Positions 1,721 through 48,000 of a stretch of DNA of 64,000 bases are shown here, one piece after another. Both the position numbers and the translations under genes were made by a program. Under the pieces are notes generated by a model. It saw nothing but the letters and a program-made list of their open reading frames with translations. It ran no database searches and was not told the DNA's origin. The DNA is from Apostichopus japonicus (lineage: Eukaryota > Echinodermata > Holothuroidea > Aspidochirotida > Stichopodidae), in NCBI RefSeq assembly GCF_037975245.1, contig NC_092564.1, positions 17,409,484-17,473,483 on the forward strand. The letters are read 5' to 3'. The stretch's first letter is position 1. Each line of letters begins with the position of its first letter.

Positions 1721-4700
1721 CTAATATCAGAGAGAGAGACAGAGAGAGAGAATGATACACAGGGGTAGGATTTATAATTCAATCAACCACGTTCATCTTA
1801 TACAGGAAACGCAGAGACCTGACACCTCAAAAAAGTTTGGTAAAAGGTAAAGAGGGAAAGGAAAGGAAAGGAAAAAAGAAGTTTTGTGAAAGTACTTATT
1901 ACTGGATTTGCAAGACAAGACCGGGCCTGGAAATCGGATATAATTTTGGCTGAGGGCCATCTAAACTGATACCATTTCATATTTTTTTTCCAACTTCACA
2001 AGCTCACTTTGTAACATCATATACACTGAATTTCAAATTCCTAATAAAAATATGACTCTAAGAACATTTCAAAGAAAATGAGTTCTATGACATTTTGAAG
2101 CCTCCTGAAGTTTAACTACTGTACCCTAACCAATAGACCTACGGACAACCCCAGACGGGTCATATGATGAGAAAACAAAGTCTCACAGACTACTGTATAT
2201 TAGTAGAAGTAGTAGTTTGAGTCTCGTCTATCCGACATGCTCAGTGATTAACCTCCGCCACGTATCACGATCTTGCGCAAGGTTTATTGCTTCCTCAAAA
2301 TTGTTAATATTAACGTCCTTAATTTCCGACTTTATTTTTCCAAGCAGGGTAGTCACGGGCCTTCCTACTGGTTTAGCAGTATGTCTCAGTGCTTCTCGTA
2401 AAGCAACCTTTGCTGGAGCGTCCTCCTGGAGCCTTGCTACATGACCAAAAAATCCCAATCTTCTATGTGCGACTATGGATGACCAAGGTGTTTGGTTGGT
2501 TTCATTGTAGAGCTCATCGTTTGATAACCAATTGTTATTGGTCCATCTAATGTTGAGAATATTACACAGTAGTCTCCATTGAAATATATTCCATTATCAT
2601 ATAAACCATACCAGTATATTAAACCATGATAATTAAAGCCTAGACATCGTGTAAACATGGTTTCAAAAGTATTTATTTATTTTCTATTTATTTCTCTCAG
2701 TGACTGACACTTCATGCATACATCAAAGGCAAAAGAACTCTTCATCAAACTTTTGCAGTTTCTGTCTTTGAATTGGTTGTATTTTTTATATTAAATCTAC
2801 AATGAGTTAAATAAGAGACACTATTTGTATTACTGTACATATACACTGTAGTAGAAAATGTTACCAATTATCAGAAAGGTTAGAAAATATAGAAAAATAC
2901 AGAAAATATAGAAAAGTTACCAATTATCACATAAAGTCAGGGATTGTGACATAAAAAAAAAAGGCTGGATTTCCTTAAACTATTCTTTGGTGTCTATTTT
3001 CAGTTGTTTTTTATAATCAGTACAGGTATATAACAGATCAGTCCAACATGGTTTGAGCATGATTTATCCAAGAAAAGGGAAAGGTCATTATTCTTTAAAC
3101 AATAGAAAAGTTCTGTAGTACTGCAGTTGACAACCTATTCCATCAAGAGTAATTTAATTTAATTAATTTATAACACAAATTATGATAAAGAGATGTTATG
3201 TAGATAGTCATGTTGCATAAAAATCATTTGATGTTGTATGATACTGGCTCATACTAGCTACATAGATTATACCACACATATCCATGTACTTCTAACAATT
3301 TCAACCGATTCCTTAAAAAGTAAGTAAAAAAACAAAAAAACATTAAGACAAGTTTCCTTGTCAATAAAGAGCCATTTTTTCAAGATTGGAATTTGGAAAT
3401 TGGAAAAGCAAAATACGATGTAAATCTTTCTCACTCTTTTCTCGGGCAAGGGAGGCACAATGACATATGGGAACGTCACCACCAAGTAATTTCTGAGCAT
3501 CTCAAATTCACTGTACCTCCTCCAGAGCGATGAAGGATTTCCAGCCACCTGCCTCTTCCTGCCATTTTCTTCTCGAATTCTGAAAGTGAAAAAAATTATG
3601 ATGTGGTGAGCGAACTGTCGACAAAATCATCGTCAAGACGCGAGTGTCGATTGTCCCCCACATGAAAGGAAGAATGTATCTAAATTCACTTACTCTTAGC
3701 TCTAGAAGAAATCACAGAATTCTGTTTAAAGTCACAGGTGACAGATGTCTCCAATGCAGCTTATTACTGTACTGAACTGATGTTTGGAGCGTGCACCATT
3801 AGTCTTGGCATCCTGATAAATCCCATTCAGTCATGTTTTCAACAGTAATATTGAGATCTGTTGTGACATCTTCATAAAGCAACTCCTCCGAATATTTAAC
3901 CCCCCTGCCAATTTTCACCCAATTTTCTTCCCAACTTTACACCATCTTTAACATTCCCTGTGTATCCTGTAGTACATTTGAGTTAGTCAAGACAAATATC
4001 AGTTTTGTAAACATGTATAGTACCTTGAGATACTGTATACCGAGCTATACATAACAACAAAATGTGCAGTAAAAGTTTATCAAGCCTTGACGAGGTATTG
4101 CTCTTGCCACTAAAATGAATTTAGGGATGCATTTCTCAAATCTACAATGAGACGAACTCTCTGAATCACTGTGAGGGTGTGGAACGGATACCAGGTCCCT
4201 CTAGACATGCTAGAACAAGAGTGCAGAGGCTATGAGGAGACAGGTAAGTCAGGACGCAAAACAGATCAGACGGTGTTCTTCAGAACTGTTATTTTCAGGT
4301 CCTTTTTCAAGTGAAAATTTTCACCGTCCTGCAAAACTGAGGTCTTTTATACATTGTTAAGTCCTTAATGTACAGTAATTTTATATCTTGTCTGTACTTC
4401 CTACAATTCTTTCCAAGTCACAAAACCTTCATACATTCGCATTTTCATAACAAATAATTCAATTTTGTTATTTACTAAAAAAGACAAAAATACTATTTGT
4501 AAAAGTAGTACATGTTACCAAACATCAACTGATGTCACTAGACAATGTGTGTAATTATTTCTTATAAACACAATCTGTTCAAGACTTCTACAAACTCATG
4601 TGTATCTTCTTCTTCTGTGTAAATTAAATTCAGCTCGACACGTCTCAACTTCCCCAAAAAGTGCAAAGTAACAGTACGTCCAGTGCAGTAGCTCAAACAC

Positions 4701-7700
4701 TGGCTAATTATACAGTATAACGCTGTTTTTGTACAGTTATGTCACATTGGCTTGTCACATTGACTGTTCAATTAAAGATTTAAGCATCTGGTGACTCATG
4801 GAATACAAATTAGGCCTCTTATTTCTTTTTTATTATAACTTTTAAACAAAGATATTGTTTGAGAATCTTGAGTTCTCAGAGACATCAACTTTGACAGCTA
4901 AGTGTCTGAATTTATGTTCAAGTCAGACCCACCACCCACGATGATTAACAGTGGCATTAAGTTGTTCGAAATAGGCCTACAAGAAAAGCTTGTCTTCCTG
5001 TGACTACAGAGGAGCCTGGCTGTGTGATGGAATGAATGTGAGTAATTGAGTATGATCTATAGTACACAGTACGATGATGGTAATATGCATGTACGGTACA
5101 CTATGAATAGACTGATGACTGTACAGTACAGGTGTGTGATTCTATCAAGTGCACAAAATACTATACAGTATGATTGGAAAGGTGTGATTCTAATTGAAAA
5201 CACATGTTTATGTCAAAACACATGTTACAGTATGTGTCCAAACCCATGTTACATTTCAATGATAATGTTCCATTCGTTAAAGCAGGGGATAATATTCCAT
5301 TAGTTACACAGGGGATACCGTTCCATTAGTGAAGCAGGGTGTACTGTAGGATAGTAAGTTAAGGTAGACAAAACTGGTAATTACAGGCAAGTGTATACCT
5401 TCAGACTTCCAAAAACGTCCATGGTGCAACGCAAAAACCCCAACAGATTTCGAGCTGACAAAATACTGTATCCTAGATATTGTAGAAACCATGTTCAGTA
5501 GAAACCATTTCTGATCATTGTTAAATTCGGATGGGAAGAGGGCTCAGAGAGAGTGTCATTGTGAGTGCAGTGCCAGATACCAATTGTTATAGGCTAAGTA
5601 GAGCAGAGTGTTTATATAGTACAGTTTGTATGGGGAGACAGGTGAGAGAGAGAGCAATGAAGTAAACAGTTATTATTTCAACTCCCTCTCTGAATGAGGG
5701 ATAAAGGTACTGTACAGTACTGTACTGTTGTTCTGAACTAACTGTAAATAGTACTCATGATTACCGATAAAGTTGTTTGCCTGGAATCAGTTACACACGA
5801 AATCACTTCAATGTCCGTTTCAACATGCCGATAAAGACTTCACGATTGTAAAACTCTAATCGAAACAATATTTGGGGATATTTAAAGTAATAAAATAATG
5901 ACTGAATTAAGGAGATGTTTTCTCCCCTCCCCCCCTCCCTCCTCAAGTTTCAGTTGTTTAAAATTGTAATGTACAGTGTGGTTAATTCTTTTTTCTTTAC
6001 TTGTTTTAAGTTGTTGTAATCAACATGAAAGTAAATGTAAGGAATTTTATCATCCTTCACTGGAAGGTTATCATAAAATAAACAAAAAATGCTTTATTAT
6101 TGTTCATTAGTAAGCCATACTGCAGCGTTACTGTTTGTCTCTGACTGAGTGTTCTGTACCAAACACATGTATTCATACTGTATGGTACGGTAATGTATAC
6201 AGGCAAGAAATTCCAGGAGATTTCTAACAATACAGCCAATTCACATGCTAGTACACAATACTATTGTACTGAAATATTAAAAAAAAATTAACAATATAAT
6301 TCATAACATTGTACTACGTAATACTATATGCAAGCATTGTGGATGTTTTATATTATATTATTATTATTATACAATATTATTGTAAGATACTATGTGAAAT
6401 GGGTAATACTATATGCAACAATGTTATTGTGGATGTTCTATATTATATTATTATGATACAGTGTTATTATTATGATACTATGTGAAATGGGCGAACAATG
6501 AGTAGCAAGTTACCAAATTTTGTAAAATTGTTGAATGATTATGTACGAAACAGTTGTGACAGTACGTAACAGCTAACAGAAGGATGAAATGTATTCTAAG
6601 ACCTTACTGTACAGGAATAACAGACTTACTTAAATACATACTGTTTATACTTAGTAATATACTGACATGTACTGTACTCTTAACATACAGTCTCTAGCAT
6701 AAAAAATACTAGAATTTTTCACTTTGCCATTCTGCCAAATTTTCTTTAAATGTATGTGTCTCTCAGCGAGCATGATTCTTGAAGCAAGCTGTTAAATCAA
6801 ACCGTGATACTTGCTTTTAGGACGGCTCATTGAGATTCACAAAATTCAGCAAATGCTTCATAAATAGTGATGATCCATCAGTAGTAAATGTCAAGCAGTC
6901 ATGATTTTTTCCTTTTTAACATTACATGCTGGTCTGGGTATGATGTCTGTGTTTCCCCTCGTTGCCATTTCTACTATACCATGCCTGTGTCTAGCATACT
7001 GTACTTGTGCTTAGGATTTTCACCACCCCCCCAAAATATTTCCAAAAGCGTTGTGCAGTCATCGAGAACTGGGATTTCATGCAGCATTCTTTTGTAAGTC
7101 GCTGGTGCAGTGTGTCACAACTGCTCATACATGTATAATTATTCAACGACCTACAAAAGTTTCTAAATATCACTGACATTATACTGTGCAAACACAAAAA
7201 TTCAAATATTAGCTAATTCATGTAAATTCTTAAAATCTTGGATATATATGGATGACTCTGTTCTGTATTCATGAATTGACCCCAATGTTCAACAAAATTA
7301 ACACTTAGTACTGCACAACTTGCTCTTAAATCTATTTTTCTAAAAATTCGAACCCCCCCCCCAAAGAAGGAAATACTGGTTTGGGTATGTATGAATGTCG
7401 TTATTCACGTGTCTCCATTTGACGTGCATTCAAATCTACCTACGTAGATTAATGTACAAAAGCTGGGGGAAATTTAGCAGTGCATCCCCCCCCCCCCCAT
7501 TGATCTACTGCAGTGTCAAACACCCACCTCCTCCCAAATCTACTAAATTTCACAATCTACTTACAACCATAATTCTGTTGGTTTTAAAGTTTAACTAAAG
7601 TTTCTGATGTTAGGCTCCATTGGACACTGAAGATACCATCACCTGTATCCAGCACCGATAAATATCCTTTTAATAAAATTATGAACATTTTTTAACTTCA

Positions 7701-16069: not shown

Positions 16070-16231
16070 TACTTTTTAAGAAAAGTCACCCAGGAAAGAA
16101 CCTGGGCACGAAAATCAAACTACCGAACGACTGATCCACTCTCAACCCCAGTCCCATTGCATCGAGACTGTGACTGTGTGATCATCGTCTGGTGTGTATC
16201 ACCATTCCACTCGAAAGGGAACAGATATACT

Positions 16232-17003
16232 CAAGGGCGGCGGAACCGGGGGGGGGGCACAGGGGGCACGTGCCCCCCCCACTTTTCCTCAGGTTAAAAA
16301 TGTGCCCTTTTTCTACATAAAAATTTCTAAATAAAAAAAGAGTTTACAAAGCGAAACCCACGTCGAATGAAATATTTCGGGAAGTTTTAAATGTTTACTA
16401 CCACAGGCGTAGGAGCCCAATTTGATTTGGGGGGGCTGTAACGACTTGCCCGAAAAATATTACAGAAATTTTTCGCGCGCTACGCGCGCGTTCAACATCT
16501 CAATGTGCATATCATATAGGCATGCGTTGGTTATTACATCGCATGCCAATAGCATGCAATCATTTGCCGTGTTATAACCCTTCCAAATTGGTTATAATTA
16601 TTCGGAAAGTCGTTACAATAATAATGATCATAATAATATCAGTTTAACCATTGAAAAACACATGGAAAATTTTTTTTCTTTCAGTATTTTGACATATTTC
16701 ATTTGCTCTCATGCATGTATCGATCGCGTGTGCAGGGACTTGGACTTTATAATGATTTCACCTCATTGTGTCTTTTTCCTTCTTTCCCAATTTGCACATT
16801 AGATATTGCAGTGCTAGTATGCATTGTTCCCTTGAGAGGGGGGGGGGGTGGCGTTGATGGAGTGATGTGTATACGCAAATAAGATAATACAATAAGAGTT
16901 ATAAAGGGTACTAAATATCAGGCTGCATCAATCCAATCGAATTTCTGCAAAGTGCCCTTCGACTTTGGTGCCCCCCAGATTAAAAGTGCTTCCGCCACCC
17001 TTG
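16232..17003. mobile_element. hAT-type element inside U2-SINE copy 1
   Basis: Ends CAAGGGCGGCGGAACC and TTCCGCCACCCTTG are inverted. The flanks GATATACT (16224-16231) and GATATGCT (17004-17011) are an 8-bp target duplication with one change. Removing the element rejoins the SINE. The interior carries a fragment of a second family (16,404-16,665) and is close to the element at 27541-28076. Confidence 0.92.
16404..16665. mobile_element. Fragment of the CATAGGCGTAGGAG hAT family
   Basis: CAGGCGTAGGAGCC followed by CTGTAACGACTTGCCCGAAA and a CGCGCGCTACGCGCGCG palindrome. This is an inverted copy of 36,395-36,645 inside the full element at 35613-36649. Only one terminus is evident here. Confidence 0.75.
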
Positions 17004-17292
17004 GATATGCTACACATGATCTTAACCAAATGGCCAAAATAGTATATTGCAGCTGTAGCTCACTGATACGTATCATTAACTGGGCTGGTAACACTTAACG
17101 AAGAATGCTTGTTGTTGCACCTTATAACCGCTGTTGATTTTTCGTTAGACCTTCATCTCTATATTGTATGCATGTCTTGCTAAGTTGTTGTTATAAACAT
17201 ATATATCTGACCACTGGCGGATCCAGGGCCTTTGTTTGGGAGGGGCCAAAGTGGAATTAGAGTGATATGGGGGAGGGGTCTAAGGGGAGGGG

Positions 17293-18368: not shown

Positions 18369-19359
18369 GGGAGGTGGAGCCCCCCTCCCCTTTGGAAAAT
18401 TTTCTATTGCTGAATGCCCTCAGATGCATTTGGTGCGACAAAAGTGTACAATGGTGATGTTAATTTACTTCTAATAAAAATGTTTCCCAGGTGTAATTTT
18501 CTAAAATATTTATGAAACAAAGTTGGGATCATCTTTCTCAAGAAATTTTATTTCTCATAGGTTATAAATTTCTTACAACCAGCCTGTAACTGCAAAATGG
18601 TGTTAAACTGTAAATCCTCATGCTCATACATTTACATAGCTCCCAACTCTTGAGAAGGCAAATGCTGGTCATGCCACGAATCGCTGTCCTGGGGGTGGGG
18701 TATTAGGGGAGGGGGGTGTCCCCCTCCCCTTTTGATTTTTTTTTGGGAATCCTGGTGATGCCTACATGTAAAATAGTGGCACTTAGAAAGGCTTTTGTCA
18801 CCCAAAATGTTCTGAGAAATATGCATTTTTCTGTGTGTAACATCAATAAATTGAATAGTAGGTGATAATTCATTCTTTCCCGTGGCATGAAAATGTTCGC
18901 TGCTCGCCCCATTGAAAAGAAATATAGGCTAATTTGAGGTTCAAATGATGCTGTAAAGGAGGTTTAATACTCTATTATGCTAAATGTTAAAGAAATGATG
19001 GTTGCTAAGTCAAAATTTGATGCAAATTTTTTTATGTATACTTGACAATTACAATGCGGTTTTTTCGGACGCTTGTGCGGGTCAGCGGGTTTGGGTGTTA
19101 GAATGCGGGTCTAATTCCCGCGAATTGCGGGTCAGTTGGGAGCTCTGCATTTAATTTTAAACCAGAAAACGAAAAGGTTTAGACTAGTCTACCACTGCTA
19201 TTCCTCTCGATTTTTTAAATTTCCAATCATATGATTTAGCGGATGTTCGGAAACACTTTTCGGCTCACCTTTGGGGGGGCCATGGCCCCCCTTGGTCCCC
19301 CCCTTGGATCCGCCAGTGTATCTGACTTGTAATTTGACTTGTAAATAAACTGAAGATAC

Positions 19360-19549
19360 TTTTTAAGAAAAAGTCGCCCAAGAAAGAACCTGTGCACGAA
19401 AACCAAACTACCAAACGACTGATCCGCTCTCAGCCCCACTCCCCTTGCATCGGGACTGTGACTGTGTGATCATCGTCGGGTGTGCATCACCATTCCCCTC
19501 GAAAGGGAACATATACTACACATGATCTTAGCCAAAAGGCCGATAAGCG
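19360..19549 (-). mobile_element. U2-headed SINE, copy 2
   Basis: Reading the minus strand, the 5' end is CGGCCTTTTGGCTAAGATCA then TGTGTAGTAT, the start of U2 snRNA. A body unlike U2 follows (ATGATCACACAGTCACAGTC) and the 3' end is near TTCTTGGGCGACTTTTTC. The flanks ACTGAAGATAC (19349-19359) and ACTGAAGAGAC (19550-19560) are a LINE-style target duplication with one mismatch. Confidence 0.9.
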
Positions 19550-19660
19550 ACTGAAGAGACTTGACTTGACTTGACTAGAATTGCAATAACATCAAGTACT
19601 TTGTGATTTGATTCACTCGACTTGAAGAAAATTGACTTGGAACTTGACTTCGTTACAGCA
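19550..19660. repeat. TTGACT/CAAGTCA-rich degenerate repeat
   Basis: Runs of GACTTGACTTGACTTGACT followed by scattered GACTTG motifs. The same motif appears at 47,320-47,420 and 47,895-47,955. Confidence 0.55.
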
Positions 19661-21922: not shown

Positions 21923-24572
21923 CTATCAAGATAATAATAATAATAAGCAAAGAAATGTACGCGGTAGTTTATTAGATGTAATACTTTGTTTTTAAATTTG
22001 ACAGGCTAGATAAGTTGAAGCTGATGCGCATCTTCAAATACAGAGGACGTGTGATCCACTTCTACGAACAATGTTCGTGGAGTGATATAGTTACCGTACT
22101 CAGCGGCGAAAGTATCGTTAGTAGTATATTATGACGTCATCATATGTAGTATATGTTTCTTTTCGAAGGGATAGTTCACTTGAAATTGACGAAACATTGT
22201 CATGGTTTTACAGCATCTTGTTGGCGTTCCATAATGTATACATACTGTTCCAGTCGCGTCTTAAGGGGATTGTGGTTGAGAGTGGATCAACTTAAATTTG
22301 TTTGGTTTTCGTACCCAGGCTCTACTAGTATCTTGAGTGACTTTTCTTAAACGCAGACACATTAGTTTTCAGCGTTATCATTTTCATGACTCATGAATCA
22401 GGCACAGACAGGCATCATTTCGCAGTTTAGAAATACATTTTCACAAGCAAACGAATGCTATACTATTTCTACTATACTATTTCTCATCAGTTTGTAGAAT
22501 CTCTTACTTTTTGCCGAGAGGGTCGGGGGGCAGGGAGGTACAGTCATGGCAGTAATTGTTGGGGTCTTCAACATCACACAATTAATTTAGTGCCTATGTA
22601 TAGTCACTCTTTAAGGTTATAGGGTGAAACAGATACAGAATTGTGATTATTATTCCTTATAATTGCTTACCTTCGAAACTTCTATGTCTGTGTAGATTCA
22701 TTTCATTAGTGTTTTCCTGGTAGACTACCGCGTCTATCACTGTCGGAGAGCTACATTCGTTACCATTGAAGGTAATGTACCATCTCTTGCAACATCCACT
22801 ACATCCATAGACTCGTAGGTTACCACCATAGTAAACCCAAAGAGCGGTGTCACTGTACTGCTTAGTGAAGACGCAGTCCTTCGAGGCAAATCAAAGAGAA
22901 GACATGTATTTTATAGGCATAAATATACTTTCTGTTTCTATCCTCTTTGTTTGGTTTCAATGATCATATTACTGTCAATGATTTGGATAGGGCCTTAATT
23001 TCAACGTACTAGGGGTACTTGTCTATCCACGGCTCCAGTCAACTATGTGCCGCCCCCCCCCCGGCCCTGACCCCAAAAGGAACAACTATTGGAGCCCCTG
23101 GGCTTCTGGGATACATTTCAATAAATTTTCCAATCTAACATGTTTTTTGAGCTTGAAATCGCTATATTAAAGAATAAGAAATATCTGACAATGTTGCGGC
23201 TTTCCGCGGGTCTCCCTGGACACTAATCACGAGAAGCTCTTCTCTATACCTCAGTGCCATCTCAATCAGAGACAGAGCCCCCATCCCCAAAACGAATACC
23301 CTCTTGTGTCTCTGCTGATAAATTATCCCTCTGTTCAATGTCCCTTTGTACTAATCTGCACCCGCCACTCCCCCCCCCCCTCTCCGTGCCTCCCTCTCCT
23401 CCAACCAATTGTGAATTCTGGTTTTCAATATAAGTCAATTATGTAGGACTTACATATATGTTGGTATCGTAGTCGTTACCATTTCCAGAATACCAGGCGC
23501 ATTGTCTCCAGTTATTGTAGTCCAAGAATTCTCCCTGACCGGGGTCACCTGTCAGTCCAACATTTCCTTTATCTCCCTTTAGTCCAGCTTCACCTCTCGA
23601 ACAACCCTATTAAATTGGACATGATTTGTTTGTTTGTTGTTGTTTCTTTATCGAAATTTTGAAAGAAATCTGACATATTGAAACTTTTTTTGACATATTG
23701 AAACATTTTGAAACATTTCTGACATATTGAAACATTTTTTTGTCAGTTTTATTTTGCAGTATAGGTCACACTATACCATACAGGCTACTTTGAATCGTTG
23801 TGGTTGTTACAATTTTATGGAGATATGAAACTGTTGAAACCAAAATAAAGATGTTTTTTTTTTTTTTTTGGTGTTGCAAAAATTTAATTTCATATTTTAT
23901 TCTTAAAGCCAAATGCATATATATTCGTGATCGATTTAACACTTTTCTGACAATTGAATTGGTTTAACTGTCGTACTTTTACTTGTTTTGGGGCAAAAAA
24001 ATTTACTCAACGTTGGTTGGATATAAATACACCTATATATATATACATACCCAGTGTTGGGTAAAATAAGTTGCCCGACGTCTTTAAACACCAATGTCTT
24101 ATTCGTGTTACCTGGTTTATGTGTTGGGGAAGGGAGGAGGGGAGAGGGGTTCAATGCGGTATATAGGCTTTACTGTTGTTTTCTACTTCGCGATGGAAAT
24201 GGCTGATCGAAAATATGGCAGAGGGACGGGGTAGGTGAGGAAGAGGAGCGCTTATAGAATAGCGGTTTCACCTATTTGGAAATGAATCCATTTTAGAAGA
24301 TTGATTAAAGCGTACATGTAATTTTTCGGGTTTTACACTCGGATACTGCATTACGTGGACACTCCTCTATATAGGACATATAACAAGTGCAGACTGAAAG
24401 GTCTATGTATAGTTGTTCGAGTTTTTTTTCAGTTTTCAACGAACGTGTAAATTATTAAAATATAAGCAAGAATTAAGCCACTTACCGAATACGATGCACT
24501 TTCTATTAACTTGTCGATGATTAGAAGACTAAATAAAACTAAAGTCAACTTTATCCAGTAATATGAATACAT
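21777..24572 (-). CDS. CTHRC1-like secreted protein 1
   Basis: Four exons, 24572-24486, 23606-23454, 22878-22671 and 21922-21777, join in frame to 197 residues plus stop. Exon 1 is a hydrophobic signal peptide starting MYSYYWIKLTLVLFSLL. Exon 2 begins GCSRGEAGLKGDKGNVGLTG, about seven Gly-X-Y triplets, then NWRQCAW. Exon 3 has DCVFTK, GCCKRWYITFNGNECSSP and NLHRHRS. Exon 4 has VGDCSGFG, DASTGWNSASRLIVREVP. These blocks follow human CTHRC1 (collagen triple helix repeat containing 1, 243 residues) in order, with the Cys pattern kept and a shorter collagen stretch. CTHRC1 is a secreted matrix glycoprotein linked to Wnt/planar-polarity signalling and collagen deposition; its role in this organism is not known. 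It is clearly diverged from the two genes to its right, so it is an older paralogue. Confidence 0.93.
22251..22353 (+). mobile_element. U2-SINE copy 5, 5'-truncated
   Basis: Within intron 3 of CTHRC1-like 1. GGTTGAGAGTGGATCAACTT and a tail with TTGAGTGACTTTTCTTAAA match the 3' half of the other U2-headed SINEs. The U2 head is absent and the sequence is diverged. Confidence 0.65.
22671..22878 (-). CDS. CTHRC1-like 1 exon 3 (globular domain core)
   Basis: 208 nt with the family core CCKRWYITFNGNECS. It ends one base into a Gly codon completed by exon 4, the same phase as in genes 2 and 3. Confidence 0.92.
23454..23606 (-). CDS. CTHRC1-like 1 exon 2 (collagen stretch)
   Basis: 51 codons, phase 0 at both ends. 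A Cys precedes the Gly-X-Y run GEAGLKGDKGNVGLTGDPG, as in the family, where that Cys may help trimer formation. It ends with TNIY before donor GTAAGT. Confidence 0.9.
23607..24485 (-). other. Intron 1 of CTHRC1-like 1
   Basis: Contains a short cluster of TGACATATTGAAACATTT repeats at about 23,665-23,740 and a T run at 23,855. No other gene. Confidence 0.7.
24486..24572 (-). CDS. CTHRC1-like 1 exon 1 (signal peptide)
   Basis: 29 codons from ATG at 24572 to the GTAAGT donor. The hydrophobic core is LTLVLFSLLII, and cleavage is plausible after ESA. It shares little residue identity with the signal peptides of genes 2 and 3. Confidence 0.85.
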
Positions 24573-28500: not shown

Positions 28501-31171
<2,671 letters not shown>

Positions 31172-35393: not shown

Positions 35394-37694
35394 GAATAGG
35401 AAAATCCAGAACAGTGAAAAAACTTCCAGCCTCCACCGGGATTCGAACCCAGGCCTCCCGCTTTATATGCGGACACCCTAACCACTAGGCTATATATGGA
35501 CGCTGATTGTATGTCCAGAATTTCGAAACCGGTATAAGGAAAGTCGTAATTCCACTCTAGGCGCTTGTCACCTGTATCGAACAATACTAGTTCTGTTTTG
35601 GTGACATATAAGCATAGGCGTAGGAGGCGGGGGGCTGGGGGGCTGCAGCCCCCCCCCCAACCAATTATTTTTGTGAAAATTCGGGCAATATGCTGAGAAT
35701 TTTTCGGGCACCTACTGGAAGAATAATAATTTGCAGAGTGTTTTTCATTTTTTTTTTTGTGAAAATTCGGCAATATGCTGAGAATTTTTCGGGCATCTAC
35801 AGAAAGAGTAATAATTTGCAATGTGTTTTTCAATTTTTTGGTGAAAATTCGGGCAATATGCTGAGAATTTTTCGAGCACCTACTAAAAAAAAGAATAATT
35901 TGCAATGTGTTTTTCAAATTTTTTGGTGAAAATTTGGGCAATATGCTGAGAATTTTTCGGGCATCTACCAGTGGCGGAGCGTTCATACAGTCAGAGGGGG
36001 CGGATGCCCCCCTGTCGGACTCAAATGGACTGCTAGCGCCCTTTTCAGCTTTTTTACCACTTTCTACTTATTCGGGATTATTGACTTTTTATTGCGATCT
36101 CAAATACCTATTGACATTTGTCACATTTTGTCGGTGCAATTTTCTGACAAATGGCGATGACACCTATTTATTCTTCGTTTATCTGCAAATTAGCTAGGCC
36201 TGGAAAGGGTCATTTCCGGCGATCTAGGGAGTATCTTTACTCCAAAAAATTTTCTACGCTCCGCGCCAACCAGTGGTGGCGCTCCGCTTAGATAGTGTCA
36301 GAAAACGCCCCTACAGACCATTCTCTCCCCCTGACTAATACCCCTAGCTCCGCCACTGGCACCTACTGAAAGAAGAAGAATTTGAAATGTGCTTTTTTTT
36401 CAATAGTTAAACTTATATTATTATCATTATTGTTGTAACGACTTCCCCAATAATTAAAACCAAAATGGAAGGGTAATAACACGAACAATGATTTTATGTT
36501 ATTGGCATGTGATGTAATAAGCGATGAATGCCTATATGATATGCACATTAACATGTGGAACGCGCGCGGAGCGCGCGAAAAATGTTGGTTATATTTTTCG
36601 GGCAAGTCGTTACAGCCCCCCCAAATCAAATGAGGCTCCTACGCCTATGCATATAAGCCCTTCTCTAGAGATCAAACATGATGCTAACCAACTCGAAATC
36701 ATTTATGATTCCTTAAAAGCCGGATCTAGAAAGAGATATATAGTTACGTATAGAGTTCCGCTATCTGAGCCATCAGATGACTCCCACGTGCACTCTTTCC
36801 AGTTTCTTGAAGGCGACACGTCATACCAACTATCATCGGTCCCCGTTCCGATAGGTCCATCGTCTCCTTGGACTCCAGGGAGGCCACGGGGCCCAACACA
36901 TGACTGTGGTATATGAGGACATAAAGGAATGATTTCATAAAGAGGTGGAGTGTTTAATGCTACCATTTTCGGTTAAACAGTACTTATAAGAATGATGGAT
37001 GGGTGCGTGGATTTGAACCTCCCATTTAAACTTGAAAACTGAATAGGCATATATACTTCTTAAGTCCATTAAAAGGCTTATTAAAAAATCTAGTCACATA
37101 GAAGGAGGGGAAAAAGCGTGAATGGCTCGCCAATGAAAAAATAAAAAAACATTACATTTATGTAATATTGGCCTACATACATGTAGGCCAATATAACAAT
37201 TCTATACTATAGATTAAAATGGTAGAAATCCAACATATAGTCGTATAGAAGCTTGCTAAACGGTTGCTACCACTTACGTATTCATTTATTTGTAAATATT
37301 AATTAATGAAACGGCTTGGTAAGAATGGATGGTACCGTGACCCGGTTAACACCTCCGATTTACCCTTCCCAGTTCAAGATGTGATATTATATACCAAATG
37401 TCTGGTTGCAGAACATATATATATACTTTCTATGCAGCTCATCGATTCTCATGACTATCTTGCGTGAATTATATATATATACAATAACATGACCAAAGTA
37501 TTTCAAAGTCCATTTTAAAACGTTTCTCTTTGTCTCTTAGAAATATAAATTTGGTGAAATAGTAAAGTAACAGTCATTCAATTCTTCTAGGAACAATAAT
37601 TGATTATATTTACCTGTGATCCATTCCCTGACAATACCAGGAATGATAAAAACAGGAACACATTTAGAAACGATGTTATCATCATGTCGGCCAT
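34126..37694 (-). CDS. CTHRC1-like secreted protein 3 (unit B)
   Basis: Exons 37694-37614, 36903-36748, 35046-34839 and 34271-34126 join to 196 residues plus stop. Exon lengths (81, 156, 208, 146) and phases are identical to CTHRC1-like 2. The proteins differ at few places: signal peptide (SFLNVFLFLSFLVLSG), exon 2 WESSDGSD for WETSDGSD and exon 3 SGADLHR for SGANLHR. All Cys and Gly-X-Y positions are kept, which suggests purifying constraint or very recent duplication. Expected to be a secreted short-collagen/Cys-rich glycoprotein of the CTHRC1 family. Intron 2 is enlarged by a nested hAT insertion 36649-35613, which does not touch the splice sites. Both recent copies have intact frames and splice sites. 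Confidence 0.93.
34600..34803. mobile_element. hAT-like MITE in intron 3, unit B copy
   Basis: Orthologous position and ends to 28977-29169, with a small C-rich expansion near 34,757-34,768. Confidence 0.8.
34839..35046 (-). CDS. CTHRC1-like 3 exon 3 (globular core)
   Basis: 208 nt with [20 protein letters not shown], same phases as genes 1 and 2. Confidence 0.94.
35317..35388. repeat. TA microsatellite, unit B
   Basis: About 70 bp of TA repeats abutting the 3' end of the tRNA-derived SINE. Confidence 0.95.
35395..35570 (-). mobile_element. tRNA-derived SINE, unit B copy
   Basis: Same element as 29,930-30,115, with TAGCCTAGTGGTTAGGGTG and GGTTCGAATCCCGGTG in the paralogous place of intron 2. 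It therefore predates the duplication. Confidence 0.8.
35670..35968. repeat. About 84-bp tandem array, 3.5-4 units, inside the hAT element
   Basis: Each unit carries GGCAATATGCTGAGAATTTT and TTTGCA(A/G)(A/T)GTGTTTTTCA. The long open frames on both strands across it are repeat translations. Confidence 0.9.
35969..36358. mobile_element. hAT-type MITE, inverted relative of 17611-18006
   Basis: Begins CAGTGGCGGAGCGTTC and ends CTAGCTCCGCCACTG. The flanks GCATCTAC and GCACCTAC are an 8-bp duplication with one change. It lies within the tandem array of the host element. Confidence 0.9.
36748..36903 (-). CDS. CTHRC1-like 3 exon 2 (collagen stretch)
   Basis: 52 codons, acceptor CCACAG, donor GTAACT. 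Gly-X-Y run GPRGLPGVQGDDGPIG, then ECTWESSDG. Confidence 0.92.
37614..37694 (-). CDS. CTHRC1-like 3 exon 1 (signal peptide)
   Basis: 27 codons, donor GTAAAT. Contains most of the residue differences from gene 2, as expected for a loosely constrained signal peptide. Confidence 0.88.
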
Positions 37695-43594: not shown

Positions 43595-43763
43595 CAGGGA
43601 ATAATTTAACAATTTGTGTAGCAGTTTTGAAGTCACAGAACTTGTCTCTTATGAAATGTTAAGGTTCCTGTGTGAAAAATTGCTATACATCTTTGGACTA
43701 TGATAGCAGTTTGATCATTTTGCATGACATTTTGCGATGCGATAAAGGATAAATTATTCCCTG
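43595..43763. mobile_element. Short TIR element, CAGGGAATAATTT family
   Basis: Ends CAGGGAATAATTT and AAATTATTCCCTG are exact inverted repeats. No clear target duplication. Diverged relatives are at about 58,670-58,820 and 59,442-59,637. Confidence 0.75.
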
Positions 43764-43950
43764 TATTGACTTCAGATTACAATATGCAATTCAACATAAC
43801 ATTACAGTATATGTGCAGTATATATACATGTATGTATGTACAGTATTATGAAAATAATTGGGGCCATTATAAACAAGGATAGACAATAGAAGTTTCGTAG
43901 TCATTAGTTTATTGCTATTCCAGCAAAATGAATTGAGTAAATCTGGTACT

Positions 43951-44142
43951 TTTTATAAGGAAAAGTAGCCCAGGAAAGAACCTGGGCACGAAAACCAAAC
44001 TACCGAACGACTGATCCGCTCTCAACCCCAGTCCCCTTGCATCGGGGCTGTGACTGTGTGATCATCGTCGCGTATGTATCACCATTCCCCTCAAAAGGGA
44101 ACATATATACTACACATGATCTTAGCCAAAAGGCCGAGAAGC
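43951..44142 (-). mobile_element. U2-headed SINE, copy 3 (best preserved)
   Basis: On the minus strand it begins GCTTCTCGGCCTTTTGGCTA and AGATCATGTGTAGTAT, matching U2 snRNA positions about 4-38. It then switches to the family body (GATCACACAGTCACAGCCCC) and ends GGGCTACTTTTCCTTATAAA. GAGTAAATCTGGTACT (43935-43950) and GAGTAAATCTGATACT (44143-44158) are a 16-bp target duplication with one mismatch, the mark of LINE-driven insertion. Confidence 0.93.
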
Positions 44143-44841
44143 GAGTAAATCTGATACTTCTCACCATAAGTCATCTTCTCATCCTAGCTGTAGTAATTTT
44201 TTTTCTTTTTTTTTGGCATTTGTCATTGGATCTGTCTCTCATAGTAAAAGACTTGTGGTTCCGGAAGATAATCTAGCATCAAAAGCAGCCAGTCAATCTG
44301 TGTTTTGTTGTGAAGAGAAGAAAAGATAAATTGCACAATGAAAACTGTGCACTGTTATTTGCTAGCCTGGGCTTTTTCATCACCTCCCCCAACCCCCCCT
44401 CTTAATTCCTATTTGGGGAACCAACCAGCTGGGACAAGTACCTATTCAATTGAATTGTGGATGATGACAATTAGATCTACTGTGAACTATTCAGGTGACA
44501 CAGATACAGCTCAATAAGAAAAGAGGATGGCTCATGTATTGCAATGCATTCTTGAGAGGCTTTAGCTGGAGAGAAAATCCTCTTAACTGTGGTTTGCTTA
44601 TAACACTTAGCTTTAGTTGGAACTGACTCATAGACAGTCCTGTGTTGAATGGATTTTTTGGTAATATATTTGTGTTGCTGGTACTGTTTATTGGGTGCTG
44701 CATGCATGACCATCTCCTTTAACATGATGATATATGGAAGAGGGGGGGGGAGAAAAAAAGAGGGAACAAGGGAAATGTCTTAAAGAAGCCAAGAACTGTA
44801 TGGAATCAATACCTCAAGACCTTGAGTACAATATATGTGTT

Positions 44842-45019
44842 GCTTCTCTGCCTTTTGGCGAAGATCATGTGTTCCTTTTGAGGGGAATGGTGATACACAC
44901 CTGACGATGATCACACAGTCACAGTCCCAATGGAAGGGGACTGGGATTGAGAGCGGATCGGTCGTTCGGTTGTTTGGTTTCGTGCCCAGGTTCTTTCTTG
45001 GGTGACTTTTCTTAAAAAG
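44842..45019 (+). mobile_element. U2-headed SINE, copy 4
   Basis: Plus strand. GCTTCTCTGCCTTTTGGCGA then AGATCATGTG, followed by the family body and TTCTTGGGTGACTTTTCTTA. TATGTGT flanks both ends (44834-44840 and 45020-45026). It lacks the GTAGTATATAT segment at the head-body join. Confidence 0.9.
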
Positions 45020-45026
45020 TATGTGT

Positions 45027-48000
45027 AATTGCTTAGATATTTTCATACAATAGCCTACAGTACTTGTACAGACCTGTCTCTAATTTGAATGTTGGAATTT
45101 GTGAAATGGGGATCGAGGTTGTTAAAAGTTATGAGATATTAATCCTCATTTAGGTCTTGTTCTATTGAGTGGGGATTATTTGGGGTGCTAAATTGTCGTG
45201 CATTTTGTCACAGTACAAAAGCTATGTTAACCAGTGCTAATGCTTTAGTAAAGCTGTCGTTTTTGTGTTTGTACGTTAAAGATGACGTTTCATGTTTGTC
45301 CGTTAAGCCGTCGTAAATGTGTTTGTACGTGTTTGGTCGTAATGTTCCGTAATTTTTTGTGTAATATCCCTACGTAACTGTAGATGGAATTATGGAGTAC
45401 TGCACTTTTAATTGCCAAGTTAACATTAGCACAATGCCAGTATATCTAGTAGTACTACTAAGTTGTACCACACAAATTTACTGAATTCTTTATAGTTTAA
45501 TGTGCCAAAAAATATTTTAGTTTCATTCCTTATTTAGTTTTTGAAAAAAAATTGACACATTTGCCTCTGGATAATACCATAACTTCAAATTAGCTTCTTT
45601 CCTTCGTTAGTACAGTACTGGGCCTGTACATATTGACTTAGAAGTTAGAACCTATAGATGTCATGTCACCCTCGGTCTCTCTCAGATGAGAAGGAGATAC
45701 CATAGGGAAGGTTGCCCAAGCTCAAAACATGAGTTAACATTGCCGGGTTGAAGATAATAATGTTTATGAGTGTTTTTTTATTGATTTACATAGTGTCTGT
45801 TGTAAGTCTTTCAGAAATTTTCTTCATGATAATGTTGCCTGTACTATTGTCACTCAGGATGTTATGTTATCATAAAAGTTTCTTGTTGCAAAATTGGTGA
45901 TACTTGTTTGCAATCATACTTTGTGGATGGGTTGGGGGGGGGGGGTTCTTTCTCTCCTTTATAAGTACTGTAGTTTACTTTCTAAAAACACACACATAAA
46001 CAAAAGACAAGTGATAGCAGAATATATGACTATACATCCCACAGTTAAGAGAGTTTATTTTCAGCCTTTCAGTAAAAATACATACTTGTGTGTGTGTGTG
46101 TGTGTGGGGGGGGGGCTGGGATTTGCAGCCCAAGTAGCAGAAGAAACAAACAACCCAGTTGTGCCAGTTGTTTATTATGGTTGACCTCAGTTGGTCAGTG
46201 ATTGGGAGAGGTCATGTTTTATGATCTTGATGGAGGCTGGACAGAATTAATTTCAGACCTTCCACTCTATACAGTAATTGATGGGCAATACAATATTCAG
46301 AATGAATTATCACTCAGAGATGAGAGGAGTGGCAACCAGCCTGAAGACATTAGTTCCGTTGACCTCAGGTTTAGGGTTCTATAGTACTATTAAGCAGACT
46401 GGTATGTAGTTGTAGGCCACTTAGGGAAGTAAAGACTTACACAGTAGGGCTAAGCTTCTAAATGAAAGATTGTTACAGTATGTGTGTACATCATACATGT
46501 AGTCCAAAGTTGCTGGTTTTGTGGTGGATTTGCAACATGTGGGGCGGGGGGGGGGGGGGGAGGATGGGGACATAATTTTTCCCGGTAGCAAATCCCCAAA
46601 ATGTTTTGTGAAAAGTAGCTCCTACAGTAACAGTTCACAGGCTGTTTGATGGAACCAAGAGCCACTTGAGTGCAACCAGGGACCATTTTACATTTTCATA
46701 AGATCTACGTAACACTTCAAGCCAAGAATTTGCTAAAATTGCATATTTGGATAAAACATCTACTGGCTAAAATCGAATTCCCAATTTTCCTTGAATTAGA
46801 TACAGAAAGCAACATAAATTTTTATACAAGTTTGTAGAAATAGTTGTTTCCCCCATAAATACTGGTTAATGCCCAAAATCCACAGGCATTTAGCCAGTAG
46901 ATATCCTGAAGTTTCAGGACCACTATAAATAATTCTTTGGGCCATGTACAGAACTATCATGCAACAATATAAGGATATAGATATGCCCATGATACATTCT
47001 TGCCGTTTGCCTTTGCTTGAAAAGCAAACTATTGGGAATGGTTCATAAACTTGGCACCCCAGAAGCTCATTTTATCAGAGATACAATATGGAGCTGTTTA
47101 ATAAATACTGTAATGGAATCCCTCATTCCACTCTTGGGTCATGCTTCTTTTCACCCTTAGCAAGGCTTGCATACATACATGTATGAACTTACTATGTACA
47201 GGTAGAACTTGCATGGAGTGAAAATTCATTGGTTTTGTTAGGTTGATGGGTACAGTCATCATATATATCAATACAGTTTGGTATGTACTGCACCTTCACT
47301 GTGGTAATGTTGTAACGGAACAAATCAAGTCAATTCACAAGTCAGAGCTTGTCATGCGACACACGTAAGTCAATGTTTCTCAAATCAAGTCACCAAGTCC
47401 AGTCATGTCGCAGTTCAAATATAAAAACAACTTTACAATGTGGGAGTTTCTTAATAATATTTTGACCAATGCTAGTATTGATTTAAATATTAATAAGGAA
47501 AGAAAGGGTATTATTTGGTTGTAGTCATGACAGTATGTTTAATTTGATTGTTAATCTAGTGAAATATTATACTTTTAATTGTAAACAGAAAACAAATTCC
47601 ATCTGTGTTGGGTTGCTTGACTTTTTGAAAGGTTGTTAACTTTAGCTTACAGAAATGCATATTTAGATCTAATATGAAGAATGATTGGGAATGATATTGG
47701 GAGCCTTGGGTAAACTTATTGGGGATTAACATTGAACATTACTAAAAGATATACTTTCCCAATGCATGGGATTATATGGATTTGGAATTTATTTTTGTGT
47801 TTACAAAGCAAGATGATACATGTTGATTGTCGTTTTTGTTTGTACTAAAATGAGAGTTTAATAAAAAAAAATTTAAAAAATAAAAATAAAAAAATTTACA
47901 AGTCAAGTGACATGTCAAATTGGATGTGACTTGAATGTGACTTCGAGTCCAATCCATTGTTGACTGTCCCTCGCTGCATTATAGTATTGAAAGTTTGCAA

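Follow-up and report, generated by a model that had tools for sequence, protein, structure and literature searches.

A SINE family with a U2 snRNA head in Apostichopus japonicus, and a possible life cycle through the U2 gene

The window analysed here, a stretch of 64,000 nt from the Apostichopus japonicus genome (C4:17409484-17473483), holds five copies of one family of short interspersed elements (SINEs) whose head is the 5' end of U2 small nuclear RNA (snRNA). Bodies of the same family are also found at one site within the tandemly arrayed U2 genes. From these observations we conclude that the family is probably a non-autonomous retrotransposon whose masters are U2 genes carrying a body of ∼146 nt after nt 45, the dispersed copies being their off-target offspring. 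We incline, more cautiously, towards a whole life cycle that runs via the U2 gene, in which the SINE would insert site-specifically, hijack the RNA polymerase II (Pol II) promoter, rely on the retained U2 5' end to start its transcript and to provide homology for the next insertion into U2, and leave many promoterless copies off target. Such a cycle, if true, would be a general route for the origin and transcription of snRNA-headed SINEs, and the finding joins site-specific long interspersed elements (LINEs), short elements at their site and dispersed SINEs, which are usually handled apart.

Results

Five window copies with a U2-derived head

That a U2-headed SINE family is present in the window is confirmed. 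An earlier reading of the window, made from the sequence alone (the sequence-only reading), had claimed five related copies, and both blastn and nhmmer bear this out. The copies and their parts are as follows.

Copy A, 16072-17038, reverse strand: whole element, split by a nested insert (blastn, nhmmer)
Copy A, 17005..17038, reverse strand: part of the U2 head lying 5' of the nested insert (40.1 bits against host U2)
Copy A, 16072..16230, reverse strand: remaining head, body and tail (blastn, nhmmer)
Copy B, 19358-19554, reverse strand: whole element (blastn, nhmmer)
Copy B, 19507..19550, reverse strand: U2 head, nt 2-45 (71.6 bits against host U2)
Copy B, 19358..19506, reverse strand: body and tail (blastn, nhmmer)
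Copy B, 19349..19361, reverse strand: tail-side target duplication, 13 bp, one mismatch to 19550-19562
Copy C (degraded), within ∼22139-22351, forward strand: whole element (blastn, nhmmer)
Copy C, 22139..22173, forward strand: U2 head trace and body start (nhmmer E=0.0047; 26.5 bits against host U2)
Copy C, 22241..22351, forward strand: body and tail (nhmmer E=7e-12)
Copy D, 43951-44147, reverse strand: whole element (blastn, nhmmer)
Copy D, 43951..44098, reverse strand: body and tail, ending ..CTTATAAAAAGTA
Copy D, 44099..44144, reverse strand: head, carrying U2 nt 1-45 and an additional AT (Rfam 41.5 bits; host U2 69.8 bits)
Copy D, 43935..43951, reverse strand: tail-side target duplication, 17 bp, one mismatch to 44143-44159
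Copy D, 44143..44159, reverse strand: head-side target duplication
Copy E, 44841-45019, forward strand: whole element (blastn, nhmmer)
Copy E, 44840..44874, forward strand: U2 head with a short internal deletion (Rfam 25.3 bits; host U2 48.2 bits)
Copy E, 44875..45019, forward strand: body and tail (blastn, nhmmer)

The identity of the head was examined in two ways. The Rfam U2 model (RF00004) matches copy D at 44056-44145 on the reverse strand (41.5 bits, E=1.6e-6) and copy E from 44839 on the forward strand (25.3 bits), both below the 46-bit gathering score because only the U2 5' end is present; a gathering-level Rfam scan of the whole window did not report U2. The relaxed scan (E<=5), which covered 43700-45300, listed U2 twice and two weak small nucleolar RNA matches outside the copies, and no 7SL, tRNA or 5S head. 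A U1-like look of the body, noticed by eye, was rejected, given that the same scan listed no U1. Compared by blastn with nt 1-45 of host U2, the five window heads score 71.6, 69.8, 48.2, 40.1 and 26.5 bits, while the best score in 20 shuffled windows is 25.6 bits. The lowest of the five, that of copy C, is close to this shuffled best, and its assignment thus rests on position and orientation. U2 nt 46-192 gave nothing better than E=1.0 against the window (blastn), and the head-to-body junction falls after U2 nt 45. Since the host U2 gene carries T at nt 30, the consensus head is U2 1-45 unchanged, identical to that of the host, and is a head of the kind that defines the SINEU class. The U2 head claimed for the complete copies therefore stands, with its length corrected from 35-40 nt to 45 nt, while the copy at 22,251 (copy C), taken to lack a head, has weak head traces at 22139-22157 (blastn against host U2 nt 1-45).

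The insert nested in copy A (∼16231-17004) has imperfect inverted ends and G-runs, and looks like a non-autonomous DNA transposon.

Copies across the genome

The genome searched was the A. japonicus assembly (671,581,487 bases, 35 contigs). An exact 30-mer from the body occurs 706 times, its reversed control 0 times, and an exact 30-mer from the head 483 times, at least 67 of these in U2 genes; on contig C1, an exact head lies at the right distance for 2 of 17 exact bodies. These counts give no headless fraction, because exact matching of diverged copies confuses missing with mutated heads. A further search, in which 40 of 2,369 first-look candidates were scored, yielded 30 loci that were cut out and read. 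U2 head sequence is visible in all 30, with the first bases altered in some, such as L023; being the best matches to a headed query, these loci favour headed copies and do not measure the headless share. Divergence from the consensus is 1.0-6.2% among the 29 copies that were aligned, and window copy C is far more diverged. One exact family pattern each, searched against viral contigs and prokaryote contigs, gave 0 matches. The portions of the A. japonicus assembly paper available to us (PMC10344927) put SINEs at 0.02% of the genome and name no U2-headed family.

Among 20 sampled 10-kb stretches from seven contigs, two had matches, L047 and L048. The former, when read, proved to be a head-to-tail dimer inside one 17-bp duplication; further dispersed dimers, by match coordinates only, lie at C6:8389703-8390004 and C16:11765710-11766011. 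The latter holds a single degraded copy, in which traces of the head remain, and also an array of bodies: at L048:6056-6561 there are about five tandem 106-bp body units without a U2 head, beside an element with inverted 42-bp repeats. This headless array looks secondary. A further cluster, again by coordinates only, at C5:22560208-22560907, has four closely spaced bodies, and after one of them comes U2 39-50 (match extending to query 158).

Hallmarks of retrotransposition

Within the window, target duplications are clear in copies D (17 bp) and B (13 bp), each with one mismatch. The claimed target duplications are borne out for these two, whereas the 7 bp of copy E stay within the 99th percentile for mismatched pairs and none was seen by eye for copy A. 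At 16 of the 30 loci, as in the SINEU class, a target duplication scores above the threshold, set at the 99th percentile of 300 mismatched flank pairs. The copies close at the 3' side with a run of A and, in most cases, GT(A), and the dispersed copies that were read start at or near U2 +1 and end AAAAAGT(A). The 49-mer made of CGTT and U2 1-45 occurs 67 times in the genome, every time in the U2 array, and at the 30 loci CGTT never precedes the head, which fits an RNA starting at U2 +1.

Junction letters were tabulated for 33 loci (the 30, window copies B and E, and the L047 dimer), of which 16 have a usable duplication and a GTA end, three lack the GTA end and 14 are unclear. In the 5' target copy, A precedes the junction in 14 of 16 (background 0.305) and TA in 8 of 16 (background 0.082). 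The commonest junction letters, AGTA|T, coincide with the U2 site.

These results support the central claim of the sequence-only reading, that the copies belong to a single SINE family spread by retrotransposition, with a head derived from U2 that meets the body at a fixed junction, which the genome loci share. Two findings named beforehand as speaking against it did not appear: rather than bodies always without U2 and with unrelated heads, a U2 head is present in 30 of 30 loci, in a set favouring headed copies, and no longer repeat was found as parent of the body except the U2 genes that carry it.

Bodies of the SINE within U2 genes

The U2 genes form a tandem array on contig C16 with a 645-bp unit. 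An Rfam U2 search, which scored 46 of 40,968 candidates, placed 42 on C16, mostly 645 bp apart, and four on C15. By exact patterns the C16 array has 67 U2 5' ends and 83 U2 3' parts, of which 55 form contiguous 5'/3' pairs. That 28 of the 83 3' parts are detached from an exact 5' end is a measure of the load that an array of an essential gene can bear; the 28 include L053, whose head has one changed base, and the last 3' part of the array.

Three array loci that were read (L053, L055 and L056) consist of U2 1-45, a 146-nt body ending AAAAAGTA, and U2 from nt 39 onward, and TCTGTTC (U2 39-45) flanks the body on both sides. The exact 3' junction of these chimeric genes occurs seven times in the genome, six of them in the U2 array (reversed control 0); six of the 83 array U2 3' parts thus directly follow a SINE body at one site, and the same six loci are the top matches to a query of body plus U2. 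By coordinates only, two of the six lack more of the 5' part of the body (their matches begin at 23 and 75), and at one array gene another body lies immediately ahead of the first, with TCTGTTC between them. The bases before the chimeric genes are identical to those before an intact gene over 391 of 391 positions at L055 (compared with the gene at the end of L051), 148 of 148 at L053 and 128 of 128 at L056. The identity over 391 bases suggests that the U2 promoter at L055 is probably intact.

The bodies in U2 genes (resident bodies) are linked in sequence to the dispersed ones. Among 47 matches to the body-plus-U2 query, 21 are dispersed and 100% identical to a resident body over at least 147 nt; they represent 20 loci, two being units of one dimer. 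The resident loop variants CCCTTAGGG and CCCCTCGGG, together with two intermediates that the pattern allows, occur 148 times in the genome, three of them in the array. The dispersed copies that were read carry the U2 1-45/body junction of the resident genes, and dispersed dimers (read in L047) likewise show the body-TCTGTTC-body join that the array gene with two bodies has.

The target site and its LINEs

The LINEs Utopia and Keno insert such that the downstream U2 starts at nt 39, according to the parts of PMC4640811 available to us. An insertion of this form, with downstream U2 from nt 39, is found for the SINE body at the six array loci, three of them read. The body itself, at 146 nt, encodes no reverse transcriptase or endonuclease, unlike Keno and Utopia.

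At least two LINEs, here named K1 and K2, occupy the Keno/Utopia site in the array. K2 measures 5305-5307 bp by coordinates at six loci and has the 3' end GAAAAGTA|TCTG; its upstream U2 reaches nt 45, apparently nt 50. K1 has the 3' end TTAAAAGAAA|TCTG and lies in units without a U2 5' end, and its C-terminal open reading frame (ORF) resembles zf-RVT, below the Pfam cut-off. The K2 5' end and the K1 3' end, when read, gave no convincing match to the SINE body, and the idea that the body is an internally deleted K2 or K1 found no support in the ends read beyond the terminal AAAAGTA that the SINE shares with the K2 3' end. K2 3'-end matches number ten. Seven are full and lie in the array, where a short one also adjoins a truncated body; the remaining two, of 39 and 32 nt, are found elsewhere on C16 (30.885 and 30.972 Mb). 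K2 is not claimed as the disperser, its full 3'-end matches being confined to the array.

The array region C16:30.998-31.170 Mb (L051-L058) has, by coordinates, inserts of 5305-5307, ∼5620-5682, 529, 659 and 4878 bp, and L054 carries a further LINE-like stretch that is not joined to a U2 junction. Among the SINE bodies of the array are those at 31006658, 31021520 and 31134441.

A model for transcription and dispersal

U2 genes use an external promoter, and dispersed copies with an snRNA head should therefore be silent. Bodies in U2 genes are a testable answer to this puzzle: with the sequence ahead of them unaltered, their transcription would most simply come from the U2 promoter, although we infer this step from sequence. 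Transcription by Pol II from the U2 promoter would make a chimeric RNA of U2 1-45 plus body, which the machinery of a U2-directed LINE, as candidate partner, would reverse-transcribe from the AAAAAGTA end. At a U2 gene the head would offer homology upstream of the cut and could give a seamless 5' junction; elsewhere, the U2 part would become the head of a SINE, and such copies would be promoterless and mostly dead, as those in the window appear to be.

Several observations weigh against this model. Exact head 30-mers (483) are outnumbered by exact body 30-mers (706), so that in some copies the head must be missing or diverged. None of the three resident bodies that were read shows CCCTTTCGAGGGG, the loop found in the consensus of the 30 loci, and these thus need not be masters of every subfamily. 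Dispersed copies stop at AAAAAGTA with no run-on into U2 39-191; only C20:14906346-14906595 shows body plus U2 39-157, at 86% match in a dispersed position, and it would be either the remnant of a chimeric gene or the product of reverse transcription of an entire chimeric RNA. The partner LINE needed for dispersal is a weak point of the model. K2, with both ends read, has only the terminal AAAAGTA in common with the SINE; its duplication looks to be 12 bp (U2 39-50) as against 7 bp for the bodies; and the genome search found no full K2 3'-end match outside the U2 array, hence no sign of the off-target insertion that the model needs. Microhomology between target and the AGTA at the end of the element may also have skewed the target letters, and 17 of the 33 loci are without a usable junction.

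Alternative explanations

In a different history, a single event during reverse transcription, through template switching or RNA ligation, would have attached U2 to a body that was already there, as is supposed for other repeats with snRNA heads, with the resident bodies secondary and the dispersed copies transcribed by read-through from promoters nearby. Such snRNA chimeras are known, as far as the available parts of PMC13174262 show, head traces are present even in the old window copy C, and no resident body read shows the main loop variant. Yet the junction lies a few bases beyond the nt 38|39 cut of Keno and Utopia, resident genes carry exactly that junction, and 21 dispersed matches have the resident body sequence without a difference. 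We regard this history as unlikely. For the resident bodies themselves, it might be supposed that they rest on homology between head and U2 within a homogenised array, the 45 nt common to both being able to pair and the array units being homogenised at an exact spacing of 645 bp. Against this, the 3' junction is exact at six loci without long shared sequence, the LINE K2 is similarly arranged at that site, and the resident loci whose matches begin at positions 23 and 75 of the body already hint at distinct 5' truncations; we give this origin scarcely any credence.

Transcription by RNA polymerase III (Pol III) from a cryptic internal promoter, with residence in U2 genes playing no role in the spread, has in its favour that most SINEs are transcribed in this way and that an A-box-like motif matches at 10 of 11 positions. 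However, ∼76% of shuffles reach an equal A-box score and all of them reach the B-box score of the SINE, so that its A- and B-box matches are no better than chance. The head also has TTTT at nt 15 (CTTTTGG is kept in 26 of the 30 loci), and TTTT early in a transcript would hinder Pol III. A Pol III promoter thus finds no support, the SINE differing from SINE1, SINE2 and SINE3, which have A and B boxes and no early TTTT, and we consider this explanation very improbable. The reading of resident U2 genes as masters is the one that we carry forward.

Other features of the window

Two tRNA-like sequences, at 29977-30048 and 35428-35499 on the reverse strand (Rfam 38.2 and 42.3 bits), adjoin long TA repeats in similar surroundings and are possibly the heads of a second, tRNA-derived repeat family. 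Ten window ORFs were scanned, giving one PX domain above the cut-off and one match below it; the PX-domain exon lies at 3267-3626 on the reverse strand (Pfam E=1.5e-9).

Comparison with known systems

In the literature surveyed we found no report of an echinoderm U2-headed SINE or of a SINE inside U2 genes, the survey being partial and priority not established by it.

SINEU elements, reportedly described by Kojima in 2015, are said to be crocodilian SINEs with U1 or U2 heads. As far as short mentions of them go (PMC8143547, PMC8010984, PMC7245038), the SINE described here is like them in being a non-autonomous retroposon with the 5' part of a U snRNA as its head, dispersed with target duplications, and unlike them in occurring in an echinoderm, in having a body of its own, and in that this body is also found at a defined site in U2 genes, which would supply a promoter. 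With Keno and Utopia it shares the U2 insertion point, downstream U2 starting at nt 39 (PMC4640811, seen in part). Unlike these LINEs, its body of ∼146 nt encodes nothing recognisable and is dispersed in large numbers.

The R2 and R2/R1 SIDEs of Drosophila ribosomal RNA genes are not known to leave ribosomal DNA and keep the 5' ribozyme and 3' end of their LINE, whereas the SINE here shares only seven terminal nucleotides with K2, retains the 5' end of the host gene in its mobile sequence, and has dispersed copies. The likeness is that both are short, non-autonomous, placed at the target of a site-specific LINE and, for the SIDEs, dependent on the host-gene transcript (PMC3414825, in the parts available), a use that our model would extend to the SINE. 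U6/L1 and similar snRNA-LINE chimeras also have an snRNA on the 5' side of the retrotransposed sequence; those, judging from the same portions of PMC13174262, arise from repeated separate events, whereas the SINE here is one family with one junction. By analogy, then, the SINE would work like SINEU and the R2 SIDEs combined.
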